NCBI GenBank assembly: GCA_937868795.1
Contig: CALMNM010000153.1
Location: 1 to 64,000, forward strand
Length of the DNA: 64,000 bases
Source: an uncultured Acholeplasma sp.
Lineage (GTDB): Bacteria; Bacillota_I; Bacilli_A; Acholeplasmatales; Acholeplasmataceae
Direction: 5' to 3'
The notes under the pieces are model-generated. The model did not search any database and was not told the origin of the DNA. It saw only the letters and a program-made list of their open reading frames with translations. A program made the position numbers and the translations under genes. Positions 48,636 through 63,547 of this stretch are shown one piece after another. Position 1 is the first letter of the stretch. Each line of letters begins with the position of its first letter.

Positions 48636-48676
48636 CTCAAATGAGCTATCATACCAGGGAAACCTGGTTTTTTTTA
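48632..48676. terminator. Back-to-back terminators between convergent esterase genes
   Basis: ATAGCTCA / TGAGCTAT (48632-48649) followed by T8 on the minus strand, and ACCAGG / CCTGGT (48653-48668) followed by T8 on the plus strand. Each gene has its own hairpin, as at 21439-21486. Confidence 0.85.
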
Positions 48677-49417
48677 TATCCAAGCTAAAACCTTTTGAAT
48701 GTATTCATCCCAAAATGCCCAACTGTGGTCACCTTTAGATTCATGATAGGTATAGGCAACCTTGTGTTGATCAAGAAACGCTTTAAAATCAAGGTTAATT
48801 TGATATAGGAAATCTTCAGTTCCACATCCGATAAATAAATCAGGGAGAGTCTTCTTCTTGTCAATAGCAAGTTTTACTAAATAGTTTAAGTCATTTTTTG
48901 TATGTCTGGCTGAACCTTCACCAAATATGGCCTTAAACCAGGGTTCGCGTGGGGTCCCCTTGGCATAGGTCTGAATATCATCAATATCAAGTGCTCCGGA
49001 TAATGAGGCTGCTTTGGCATATTTGTCTGGATAAGTTAATGCGATCTTGAGTGCACCATATCCTCCCATGGATAAACCGGCAACAAAGGTATCTTCTCTT
49101 TTTTTGGAAACAGGGAGAAAGGATTGGATAAATGCGGGAAGTTCTTTAGCCACAAAACGGAAAAAGAATAATCCACATTTCGCATCCGTATAATAACTGT
49201 TATTGATACTTGGCATGACGATGACAAAACGTTTGTCCCAATTGTATCGTTCGATGGAGGTAAATCTCGACCAATCTGTATAATCGCCCATGTAACCATG
49301 AAGCAAATATAGTACGCGAAGCTTTTCACCCTTTTTAATATCTTGGGGAAAAATGATGCGAAGATGGGTATTAAATCCTAAAGCGTCAGAATACATGGTT
49401 ACATCCATTACTGCCAT
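48674..49417 (-). CDS. Esterase (tributyrin esterase / S-formylglutathione hydrolase-like)
   Basis: The 247-residue protein has YLLHGYMGDYTDWSRFT, the nucleophile elbow GLSMGGYGALK, the Asp in GTEDFLY and the His in GDHSWAFWDEY. It fits the EstA group of cytoplasmic short-chain esterases. It has its own promoter (TGGTACAAT, TACAAT at 49443-49448) just downstream of the small-RNA terminator. Confidence 0.86.
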   Translation of the reverse strand: MAVMDVTMYSDALGFNTHLRIIFPQDIKKGEKLRVLYLLHGYMGDYTDWSRFTSIERYNWDKRFVIVMPSINNSYYTDAKCGLFFFRFVAKELPAFIQSFLPVSKKREDTFVAGLSMGGYGALKIALTYPDKYAKAASLSGALDIDDIQTYAKGTPREPWFKAIFGEGSARHTKNDLNYLVKLAIDKKKTLPDLFIGCGTEDFLYQINLDFKAFLDQHKVAYTYHESKGDHSWAFWDEYIQKVLAWI

Positions 49418-49463
49418 TGTCTTAACCTCGTTTTTTTCTTTTATTGTACCATAATTATCATGA

Positions 49464-49546
49464 TAAAAAAAGAGTCCTAATGCCTGGGGGGGATGTAGAC
49501 ATTAGGACCAATTCACGGGTCTCACCTCACTAAAGGTGGGTGAAAC
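49464..49546 (-). ncRNA. Candidate small regulatory RNA with C7 terminator loop
   Basis: A perfect promoter is followed by about 80 transcribed bases with no open frame. The 5' part can fold as TTTCACC / GGTGAGA (one G-U pair) with an inner CAC/GTG. The 3' part is a terminator: GTCCTAATG / CATTAGGAC (49474-49482 and 49500-49508), a 17-base loop with seven consecutive C (49486-49492), then T7. C-rich unpaired loops are the seed regions of Gram-positive small RNAs such as RsaE/RoxS that pair with Shine-Dalgarno sequences. I do not recognise a known family. The next gene has its own promoter, so this looks like a free RNA rather than a leader. Ends are inferred, not measured. Confidence 0.65.
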
Positions 49547-49552
49547 ACTTGT

Positions 49553-49581
49553 ATTATATATGATTCATCAAATGATGTCAA
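49553..49581 (-). promoter_or_regulatory. Perfect consensus promoter of the small RNA
   Basis: TTGACA (49576-49581), exactly 17 bases, TATAAT (49553-49558) on the minus strand. One of only two perfect promoters I found in the window; the other drives clpB. The stretch 49582-49677 upstream shows nothing else. Confidence 0.85.
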
Positions 49582-49677: not shown

Positions 49678-50406
49678 TTAATCATCAATAGATGCTTTAT
49701 AACGGTGTAAAAGATGCTCTAATATAAGGGCGATAATGATCAGCATGATCGTCCATGCAAAGACGGATGAATAATCAAGATACGTCTTGGCAAGATAGAG
49801 TTCATTTCCCACAGAATTTCGTGTTTGAGATAAATACTCTGCCATGACGAGGACTTTTAACCCTAGTCCTACCGATTGAAGAAAACCTAGGATAATATAA
49901 GGACGCATCAATGGATAGTAAAGATGTCTAAATGCGAGACGAGAGTCTTGAGCTTCTAAATGGTAAATGTCAAGATAAGCATGGTCAATATGGGTGATTC
50001 CTTCATAAGTAGCTTGATATATGATGGGAAATACCATCAAAAACGTAATCAAATATGGGGTCAAACGGTAACCGATCAATATCAATAGAATGACGATGAT
50101 ACTGATAACTGGTATTGTCCGAAAAATGGAAACATAGGGGGAAACCCACCAAGAAAATCGCTTGGATAAACCTGAAATTGATCCCAGAAGGATACCTAAA
50201 CATCCTGAAATCACGATAGCGAGTAGTAATCTTATGAGGGTGCTTCCTAACACGACCCATGTATGAGTGTCAATGAGCATACCCAAAAATGCTTCCCCTA
50301 CCATGATAGGTGAGGGTAAGATCAGTGGATGGTTGATCACTAGACTGATGATAAACCATATGAAGATGATGGAAATAACGGATGATGCTGTCCACCACTT
50401 TTTCAT
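49678..50406 (-). CDS. ABC transporter permease (SsuC/TauC/ThiX-like)
   Basis: The 242-residue protein has about six membrane segments, SPIMVGEAFLGML near the start, the LLGSISGLSKR turn and a cytoplasmic loop (YLDIYHLEAQDSRLAFRHLYYPLMRPYI) in the EAA position that contacts the ATPase. It fits the nitrate/sulfonate/taurine/pyrimidine permease group. The binding protein is encoded three bases upstream. No ATPase gene is adjacent. Confidence 0.85.
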   Translation of the reverse strand: MKKWWTASSVISIIFIWFIISLVINHPLILPSPIMVGEAFLGMLIDTHTWVVLGSTLIRLLLAIVISGCLGILLGSISGLSKRFSWWVSPYVSIFRTIPVISIIVILLILIGYRLTPYLITFLMVFPIIYQATYEGITHIDHAYLDIYHLEAQDSRLAFRHLYYPLMRPYIILGFLQSVGLGLKVLVMAEYLSQTRNSVGNELYLAKTYLDYSSVFAWTIMLIIIALILEHLLHRYKASIDD

Positions 50407-50409
50407 CGT

Positions 50410-51351
50410 CTACTCCATATAAAAATCGTCATTGGGAATGGTGCCACCAATTAATGCTGGATTCATTGCTAGAATGATTTCAAAATATTGTTCGATCATG
50501 GATTTCGCATCTTGGGAATAAATGATTGTGACATGACTGCCAGAAATGGCGTCTTCTAAGATGTCTTGATCGTCAAGAATGCCTAAGGCAACACCTTTTT
50601 GTGCTGCTAATGTCATCTGATCATGGAGAAACAAGATGCTGTCATCCATGTCTTCTTTCAAACGCTCTTTCAAGTGATTGGAGATGTTTTTATTAACAAA
50701 GAGTGACGCTTGAGGAAAACTTAATCCCTCATGAAGTGTTTCATAAGTATCATTCAAATCAATAGAATAAAGATTAGGGATTTGGGCTTTGATCAGACTA
50801 AGTGAAGGTTCAGCTACCAATACGATTTGGGTTGGATCCATGAGAAACTGAGCAACGGCAGAAGCGACTGAATCCACATAGTTGAGGGTTGCTGTGATTG
50901 ACATTTCATTTAAAAGATGTTTTACAATGATATCTGATGTTTGATTTTGTCCAAAGACTAAAATATCTTTTCCATTGATCTGGTGGATCGAATCATCCAC
51001 AAAAGATGTGGATACAAGATGATAATTTCCTAATCCAATCACGGCAAACAATTTATATTCATCACTTGATTGATAAAACTTGGCACCTAGATTCGTCGGT
51101 GCAATGATGGCATCATGCGAACCTGAGCCAAAAGCTGCGACTAAAGGATCGGGGCCATTCACAATATCGATAGCATAATCGTGTTCATCAAGTCCTAATA
51201 TGCTTAATGTTGGACTTCCTTGAGGTACCATGATACTGAGAGAATCTTCTTGTCCTATGCAGGCAAAAAGGCTTAGTAAAAGGATCATGAACAAGATAAC
51301 ACTCATAGATAACTTTAATTTAGATATTCTGATAAGGCTCACGTCTTTCAT
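50410..51351 (-). CDS. ABC substrate-binding lipoprotein (SsuA/NMT1-like)
   Basis: The 313-residue protein has a lipoprotein signal ending LLLSLFAC (Cys31) and a type 2 binding fold: SIMVPQGSPTLSILGL, IVNGPDPLVAAFGSGSHDAIIAPTNLGAKFY and VLVAEPS. These resemble proteins that bind sulfonates, thiamine precursors or oxyanions; the ligand cannot be told. The ATG start makes a 32-base overlap with the end of the hydrogenase gene and has no ribosome site, so it is probably translated by coupling; a GTG three codons in is an alternative. Confidence 0.8.
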   Translation of the reverse strand: MKDVSLIRISKLKLSMSVILFMILLLSLFACIGQEDSLSIMVPQGSPTLSILGLDEHDYAIDIVNGPDPLVAAFGSGSHDAIIAPTNLGAKFYQSSDEYKLFAVIGLGNYHLVSTSFVDDSIHQINGKDILVFGQNQTSDIIVKHLLNEMSITATLNYVDSVASAVAQFLMDPTQIVLVAEPSLSLIKAQIPNLYSIDLNDTYETLHEGLSFPQASLFVNKNISNHLKERLKEDMDDSILFLHDQMTLAAQKGVALGILDDQDILEDAISGSHVTIIYSQDAKSMIEQYFEIILAMNPALIGGTIPNDDFYME

Positions 51352-61334: not shown

Positions 61335-61361
61335 TTAGCACTTATCAGTTGACAGTGCTAA
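61335..61361 (+). promoter_or_regulatory. CIRCE operator (HrcA) of clpB
   Basis: TTAGCACTT-N9-CAGTGCTAA matches 16 of 18 bases of the CIRCE consensus arms. It overlaps the -35 box, predicting HrcA-controlled heat-shock expression. Confidence 0.9.
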
Positions 61362-61377
61362 TATTCTATTTTATAAT
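61349..61377 (+). promoter_or_regulatory. Perfect consensus promoter of clpB
   Basis: TTGACA (61349-61354), 17-base spacer, TATAAT (61372-61377), with the CIRCE repeat around the -35. Confidence 0.85.
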
Positions 61378-61420
61378 AAGGTTGGCAATCAGATATATAG
61401 ACTGCCAAAGGAGGATTATT

Positions 61421-63547
61421 ATGAACTTTACCCAAATGGATGATTACAGCAAAGACCCAAAAGTCCTCGATAAATTTGGTCGAAACATCGTTGATGCTGT
61501 CAAACAAGGAAAAATTGATCCCGTCATTGGACGTGAAGATGAAATCCGACGTGTCATCAAAATACTTTCTAGGAAAACCAAAAACAACCCCGTATTGATT
61601 GGTGAACCCGGTGTAGGTAAAACCGCTATCGTCGAAGGATTAGCACGTCGAATCGTTGATAAAGATGTGCCTTTAGGACTCCAAAACAAAATTATTTATG
61701 AACTCGATCTCGCCGCACTTGTTGCTGGTGCTAAATTTCGAGGTGAGTTTGAAGAACGACTTAAAGCAGTCTTAAATAAAATTAAAGAATCCAATGGAGA
61801 AATCATCTTATTCATCGATGAACTTCATACGATTGTTGGTGCAGGTCGAGCTGATGGTGCAATGGATGCTTCGAATATGCTAAAACCCATGCTCGCACGT
61901 GGTGAATTACACTGCGTTGGTGCCACCACTTTAAATGAATATCGAAAATATATTGAAAAAGACTCCGCATTAGAACGTCGTTTTCAAAAAGTGATGATCG
62001 ACGAACCCACTGTCACAGATACGGTAAGTATTTTACGTGGACTAAAATCCCGTTTTGAAGCACATCATGGTGTCCATATCTCTGATCCTGCGATTATCGC
62101 TGCTGCGACCCTATCAAACCGCTATATCTCTGATCGATTCTTACCAGATAAGGCAATTGACTTGATAGACGAAGCATGTGCTTCTATTCGTATGGAAATT
62201 GATTCAATGCCCGTTGAACTCGATAATGTCTTACGTCGTTTAATGCAACTTGAAATTGAAAAGACTGCTTTAGATAAAGAAACGGACCCGATTTCTAAAG
62301 ATCGATTAGCAAAACTAAAAGTTGAAATTGCTGATTTAAAACAACAAGAAAAACATTTGCGCAGTCAGTGGGATGAAGAAAAAGAACAGATTAATGCGAT
62401 TAAAAAGAAAAAGAGTCAACTCGAAGTGTTAAGAAATGATTTACAAAATGCATTTAATGATAGTAATTATCAAAAAGCTGCTGAGCTCCAATATTCAAAG
62501 ATTCCTGCTTTAGAAAAAGAAATCAATGATCTCACTTTGGAAAACCAACAAGATGGTCGACTCATTACTGAAGTAGTTACCGAAGAATCAATCGCAGAAA
62601 TCGTATCCAAATGGACCCAAATTCCCATCTCAAAACTCATGAGTGGCGATAAAGAAAAATTGTTACATCTTGAAGAAACGTTGAAAAAGCGGGTTATCGG
62701 TCAAGATCACGCACTCAGACTCATCACGGATGCGATCATCAGACAACGTGCAGGAATCAAAGATGAAAATCGTCCGATTGGCTCATTTCTCTTCTTAGGT
62801 CCTACTGGAGTCGGTAAAACCGAGGTTGCTCGATCGCTTGCGGAAGCGTTATTTGATAGTGAACATCAAATGGTTCGCATTGATATGAGCGAATATATGG
62901 AGTCCTTTAGTGTATCTCGATTAATTGGTTCTCCTCCTGGATATGTGGGTTATGATGAAGGTGGTCAACTTACTGAAGCTGTTAGACGTAAACCTTACTC
63001 GATTATTCTTTTCGATGAAGTAGAAAAAGCTCATCCTGAAGTCTTTAATATTTTGCTACAGATTTTAGAAGATGGTCGACTCACGGATAACCAAGGCAGA
63101 ACGGTTGATTTTAAAAATACGATCATTATCTTGACATCCAATATTGGTAGTGAATTTCTGCTAAGTTATGATCCTGAAGCACAAAAACAAGTCATGAACT
63201 TGGTGAAAACGAAATTTAAACCCGAATTTATCAATCGTATTGATGAAATCGTCATTTTCAATGCCTTATCTCTCAAAGTTCAAGTTGAAATTGCCAATAA
63301 GATGCTACACGATCTTGAAAAGCGTCTTTCTGAAAAGAATCTACATATCTCGTTTGGTGAAGATGTTCAAAAACACATCATTAAACATGGTTTTAACGAT
63401 GAATATGGCGCGCGGCCTTTAAAACGTTTCATTCAAAGACACGTTGAAACATTGGTTGCGATGAAGATGATTGAAGGACTGATCGTCCCCAATCAAACGT
63501 ATAAAATGGTTGTTAAAGACGATAAGTTAGTGATTGAAAATGCATAA
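61421..63547 (+). CDS. clpB: ClpB disaggregase lacking the N-terminal domain
   Basis: The 708-residue AAA+ protein has a first ATPase domain ([25 protein letters not shown]), a coiled-coil middle region (about 330-450, rich in Lys/Glu), and a second ATPase domain ([37 protein letters not shown]). Full ClpB is about 860 residues; the N-domain with its repeats is missing, as in short ClpB forms. AAAGGAGG precedes ATG 61421; codons upstream overlap the promoter. Heat-shock disaggregation together with DnaK is the expected role. Confidence 0.92.

Follow-up and report, generated by a model that had tools for sequence, protein, structure and literature searches.

Within the 64-kb window (the whole stretch of DNA analysed, 64,000 nucleotides), the minus strand carries a perfect sigma-70 promoter, a short putative RNA gene ending in an intrinsic terminator and an esterase gene (Table 1). 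The RNA lies directly 3' of the ABC-permease gene that ends a cluster with an NADH-dependent [FeFe] hydrogenase of group A6 (NF040763). The permease gene and a substrate-binding lipoprotein gene (49678-51351) directly follow and overlap the hydrogenase A6 genes; the lipoprotein gene has a weak match to VitK2_biosynth (PF02621).

Table 1. Coordinates of the small RNA locus and of the adjoining esterase gene
Feature	Position	Strand	Evidence or remark
Sigma-70 promoter of the sRNA, TTGACA-N17-TATAAT	49553..49581	(-)	12/12 match
Putative sRNA gene, class A, ~83 nt	49464..49546	(-)	Fold z-score and alignment
Hairpin 1, 8 bp plus 3 inner pairs	49519..49546	(-)	5/8 pairs compensated, 95% of cells paired
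Linker CCGUGAAUU	49510..49518	(-)	Near-invariant in the genus (alignment); mostly single-stranded (pairing probabilities)
Hairpin 2, intrinsic terminator, 13-bp stem, 11-nt loop ACAUCCCCCCC	49473..49509	(-)	Fold
C7 of the terminator loop, proposed to seed pairing with G-rich ribosome sites	49486..49492	(-)	
Terminator U-tract	49464..49472	(-)	Sequence
Extended -10 box TGGTACAAT of the esterase promoter	49443..49451	(-)	TGnTAYAAT type, behind the sRNA terminator
Esterase (PF00756), own promoter, outside the RNA	48674..49417	(-)	3' of the sRNA

Promoter and fold of the RNA

The initial annotation had described an exact TTGACA-N17-TATAAT promoter in front of an RNA of about 80 bases that ends in a strong terminator with seven unpaired Cs in its loop, and all of this held on reanalysis. 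Sites matching the promoter consensus at 12/12 positions occur twice in the window, where 0.07 are expected from shuffled sequences, and a TTGA-type -35 box and TATAAT are kept across most of the genus. The 5' end of the RNA was placed, by inference, 7-8 nt past the -10 box. The resulting 83 nt (49546..49464) fold into two hairpins with -31.8 kcal/mol, against -15.2 +/- 2.9 kcal/mol for shuffles (z = -5.65, 0/200).

The apical loop of hairpin 1 is CUUUA, located inside a conserved ACCUUUnGU. In the terminator loop, all seven Cs have an unpaired probability of 1.0. This is the sole C7 in the window, where 1.97 are expected, and by itself it is nothing unusual there. Hairpin 2 was missed by a simple terminator scan because its 11-nt loop exceeds the limit of 8 nt set in that scan.

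A CIRCE-like inverted repeat, TTAGCACT...AGTGCTAA, overlaps the second perfect promoter of the window (61349-61377, plus strand). Both stand before a Clp ATPase gene, and the region (61336-61422) is likely an HrcA-controlled heat-shock promoter.

Two classes of C-run RNAs

The short RNA, termed class A, was found in 18 of the 20 genomes of its own genus and in no other genus among the 61 genomes searched. Where the locus is assembled, it is present without exception (18/18 congeneric genomes); the two genomes left out are G014, in which the esterase gene is cut by a contig end, and G019, in which the esterase was not found. Two relatives belong to Acholeplasmataceae. Given this conservation across the genus, the feature at 49464-49581 is more than a chance occurrence.

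An alignment of 17 full class A copies has a mean column identity of 86%, versus about 53% identity for the adjoining esterase protein (53-55% in three of the aligned genomes). Almost no variation is seen in the linker GUGAAUU, the stem GUCCUAAUGUC or the loop ACAYCCCCCC; the loop varies at the one Y only, and every row of the alignment has a run of at least six Cs. Hairpin 1 covaries. In one class A copy (L025, G016:C3) the U-tract is lost (GACTATGACTATT); downstream lies another hairpin that has a long T-run, as if termination had shifted there. A leader peptide beginning at a conserved RUG-AAU-U(G/A)G start in the linker was considered and rejected, as the frame stops after 2-4 codons and is broken in L026.

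The genome that contains the window was searched for C-run terminators, and three were found: the window copy and one each on contigs C154 and C106. The C154 copy (G000:C154:48742), termed class B, stands before an OmpR-type response regulator with PF00072 and PF00486 domains, for which the closest NCBIfam models are YycF/WalR, below cut-off. Class B RNAs measure 113-125 nt and consist of a long 5' hairpin with an apical CCUUU-type loop and, after it, a C-run terminator; most copies bear a bulge of 3-5 nt on the 5' arm of the hairpin. All 16 genomes of the genus that have the regulator carry a structured stretch in front of it, and the C5-C8 terminator loop is kept in 14 of these. It is lost in G009 and G013, whose class B copies (L233, L234) retain the CCCUUU hairpin and the downstream extended -10 box. 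By genus, class B precedes the response regulator in g1, g8 and g15; shorter family forms occur in g9 and in g4, the latter with C-run RNAs of its own.

Across the family, 99.5% of cells in the terminator stem are paired, 10 of 11 pairs are compensated, and 48 compensated cells were counted versus 14 in shuffles. The covariation check proposed with the initial annotation thus turned out positive for this stem as well as for hairpin 1. Terminator stem sequences differ strongly among loci and the loop stays C5-C8. Since the stems vary freely while the loop remains C-rich, the loop is taken to be the functional part.

Further matches were also collected. The C106 hairpin (L182, 9736-9757) has a C6 loop, a T-run and a TATAAT-like box upstream. 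The preceding gene is extracellular solute-binding-protein-like, the following one encodes an ABC permease, and the hairpin is possibly another C-loop RNA. Weak R2 matches (E 0.005-0.05) were retrieved from g1, g11, g13, g15 and g20 and discarded, being without a C-run and resembling ordinary terminators; R2 matches of comparable score are present in g17 and g23. The R1 match L061 is a false positive inside a pyrD-like coding region. Two class-level matches (L482, L484) lack a C-run, and a third (L483) has a C5 loop with nothing further in its favour. A pattern scan of contigs with GTCTACATCCCCCC was too unspecific as a family finder, with at least 119 matches that are mostly unrelated.

Neither class corresponds to a catalogued family. 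Rfam 15 matched only a tRNA in the whole window, with no sRNA or riboswitch at gathering score, and ten loci of relatives were likewise without a match at that score. A scan of the sRNA region to E = 10 returned one spurious match, BSR0709, which we attribute to chance, the alignment being mostly promoter and flank and far under cut-off. A covariance model for RsaE exists in Rfam. A full-text literature search found no sRNA studies of Acholeplasma-like Mollicutes, in which trans-acting sRNAs appear hardly described. By Rfam 15 and this literature search, the putative sRNA family is new, and the initial annotation had likewise matched the RNA to no riboswitch or sRNA family; the kind, a C-rich anti-Shine-Dalgarno sRNA, is already known.

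Independent RNA, leader or terminator

Behind the terminator, an extended -10 box of the TGnTAYAAT type was found within 75 nt at 15 of 17 class A and 20 of 20 class B loci (35/37 together), compared with about 0.3 per set in shuffles. The downstream genes therefore have their own promoter, as had been claimed for the esterase. In g4, the RNA has no co-directional downstream gene and is followed by convergent genes, which from reading their translations are arginine-deiminase-like in G035 and SGNH-hydrolase-like in G022. The G022 copy keeps an upstream neighbour of the glycosyl-hydrolase type, as in other genera, and the response regulator is absent there, so the RNA persists where a leader would have no such gene to regulate.

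These observations bear on whether the RNA could be a cis-acting leader, that is, a riboswitch or attenuator whose terminator gates read-through into the esterase or the response regulator. Within each sub-family the RNA does lie directly 5' of, and co-directional with, one constant gene. Because the surrounding gene order is conserved, this association is not specific, and esterase and regulator are unrelated in function. A riboswitch or attenuator would always lie 5' of the gene it regulates and be co-transcribed with it; the second promoter and the convergent genes in g4 do not fit that arrangement. No antiterminator alternative appears among the lowest-energy structures, and Rfam scans of the window, the sRNA region and the ten relatives' loci matched no known aptamer family. 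We consider a leader improbable.

Another alternative is that the hydrogenase/ABC-transporter operon upstream merely ends here in a strong terminator and that the locus encodes no regulatory RNA. The terminator scan found no other terminator between the permease stop codon (49678) and the sRNA promoter, so that read-through from this operon may end at the sRNA terminator. Such a role leaves unexplained the perfect internal promoter, the covarying 5' hairpin and invariant loop, and the paralogue before a response regulator, which has a terminator-like hairpin of its own upstream. As a full account of the locus it is highly improbable. The position beside the hydrogenase operon was correctly noted in the initial annotation. 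Its value as a functional clue was not borne out: genomes of the genus share the local gene order around class A, and the paralogue adjoins a response regulator, which makes the hydrogenase neighbourhood uninformative.

From the second promoter behind the terminator and the stand-alone copies in g4, which agree with the initial suggestion of an independent RNA, we conclude that the two classes most probably form an independent trans-acting sRNA family and not a riboswitch leader. The window RNA would then belong to an uncatalogued sRNA family that has two classes in Acholeplasmataceae, a real and somewhat bigger finding than first noted.

Candidate targets, proposed mechanism and related RNAs

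In the genus, G6-N(3-10)-ATG sites number 246, against 100 for a reversed-pattern control, and the base following G6 is A in 65% of the 134 sites listed. GGGGGGAU, the complement of AUCCCCCC, accounts for 47 of the 87 listed GGGGGGA sites versus 13 of 51 for AAGGAGGA sites (p = 0.0013; this and the following p values on target enrichment are nominal, several comparisons having been made). Genes with a GGGGGGA site are mostly membrane- or secreted-like by hydropathy (41/55), more so than window and other background genes (21/63; p = 8.5e-6) or genes with an AAGGAGG site (5/24; p = 1.3e-5). The role in central metabolism that had been proposed by comparison with RsaE/RoxS-type regulators is not what these candidate sites indicate; they point to membrane and secreted proteins. 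Three adjacent paralogous genes for small membrane proteins (L213-L215, G000:C40:388-1792), each with a G5-G8 ribosome site, form the best candidate target cluster for the C-run RNAs. A GGGGGGA site also precedes the gene for a 163-aa membrane protein (G000:C18:25918).

The controls are imperfect. In genera without the RNA, G6 ribosome sites likewise exceed the reversed-pattern control, with a similar excess, and counts per genome do not separate the RNA-bearing from the RNA-lacking group. Part of the membrane bias is seen in RNA-free genera too, where it is weaker (19/38), and the contrast with the RNA-bearing genus has a nominal p of 0.014. Comparison of orthologues yielded no conserved core of G6 targets, such genes being rarely shared between species.

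As judged from the sequence, RNA polymerase would start at the consensus promoter and stop about 83 nt on, at a terminator that displays AUCCCCCCC in its loop; that structure is shown by fold and covariation. The 5' hairpin would present another pyrimidine stretch, the CUUU of ACCUUU, and both loops are anti-Shine-Dalgarno-like. Acting in trans, the C-run would pair with ribosome-binding sites of the GGGGGG(A/U) type and so block the start of translation on a group of mRNAs, probably enriched in those for membrane and secreted proteins. Given the longer relative in the same genome, class A and class B would function as members of one multicopy family of C-rich sRNAs; judged by position, a tie to the OmpR/WalR-like two-component system is plausible. 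Complementarity of the C7 to G-rich Shine-Dalgarno sequences had been pointed out in the initial annotation; the exposed and conserved loop stands, and the pairing itself is putative.

The same loops could serve to bind a protein. In this alternative, the C-rich and CCUUU loops would titrate an RNA-binding protein or dock a G-rich sponge RNA, and conserved loops on stems that turn over freely fit protein binding and RNA pairing equally well. A precedent for a G-rich sponge is RosA, which acts on RoxS and FsrA (PMC8216469). No candidate protein is known, and the over-representation of GGGGGGAU among ribosome sites speaks for pairing with mRNA; a protein-binding or decoy RNA is unlikely.

Pairing of the C-run with G-rich ribosome sites appears the most likely mechanism, with modest support. 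In view of the imperfect controls (RNA-free genera and unshared orthologues), we give a stand-alone sRNA gene that acts in trans in this way a probability of about 0.7. For the same reason, a coordinated regulon in which both sRNA classes, linked to the WalR-like regulator, hold down membrane and secreted mRNAs via GGGGGGAU sites is proposed tentatively, and we regard it as doubtful.

Among known systems, LhrC of Listeria monocytogenes seems the closest analogy, with more than one copy, a motif in the terminator loop, envelope-biased candidate targets and a two-component regulator nearby. CUCCC motifs in loop A and in the terminator loop of LhrC cover the ribosome site of an envelope-protein mRNA, and its expression requires the two-component system LisRK (PMC4132741). 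The window family is similarly short and multicopy, its related classes A and B presenting putative anti-Shine-Dalgarno motifs in the terminator loop (C-run) and in another loop (CCUUU), where LhrC has CUCCC/UCCC. It differs from LhrC in a C-run of 5-8 instead of UCCC, in two copies per genome instead of five, in a response-regulator link that is positional only, in targets that are predicted candidates and in matching no Rfam model.

C-rich regions are present in RoxS, FsrA and CsfG; both RoxS and FsrA use theirs to base-pair with targets and the sponge RosA (PMC8216469). Like these RNAs and RsaE, the window family has an unpaired C-rich region, here putatively able to pair with G-rich ribosome sites, and many GGGGGGA sites occur in the genus. 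Unlike in these RNAs, the C-run sits in the terminator loop; the gene context is unrelated, the targets are putative, and the Rfam 15 scans of the window and the ten relatives' loci gave no RoxS/RsaE covariance-model match.

The 6C RNA of Actinobacteria has two hairpins, each with a loop containing a run of at least six Cs. The window RNA shares one such loop. It belongs to another phylum, its other loop is ACCUUU, and neither a second C-run hairpin (fold) nor a covariance-model match (Rfam scans) was found.

Together, the above observations describe a compact RNA family that is supported by covariation. Its boundaries and promoters are clear, its members fall into two architectural classes, and the G-run ribosome sites provide a set that can be tested. 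The observations would place C-rich anti-Shine-Dalgarno-type RNAs outside the Bacillus, Listeria and Staphylococcus groups, with an adjacent two-component regulator reminiscent of LisRK-dependent LhrC. Acholeplasmataceae are wall-less bacteria. If the proposed regulation is true, the family would represent a circuit for envelope homeostasis that, in organisms lacking a cell wall, has been rebuilt to centre on membrane proteins.
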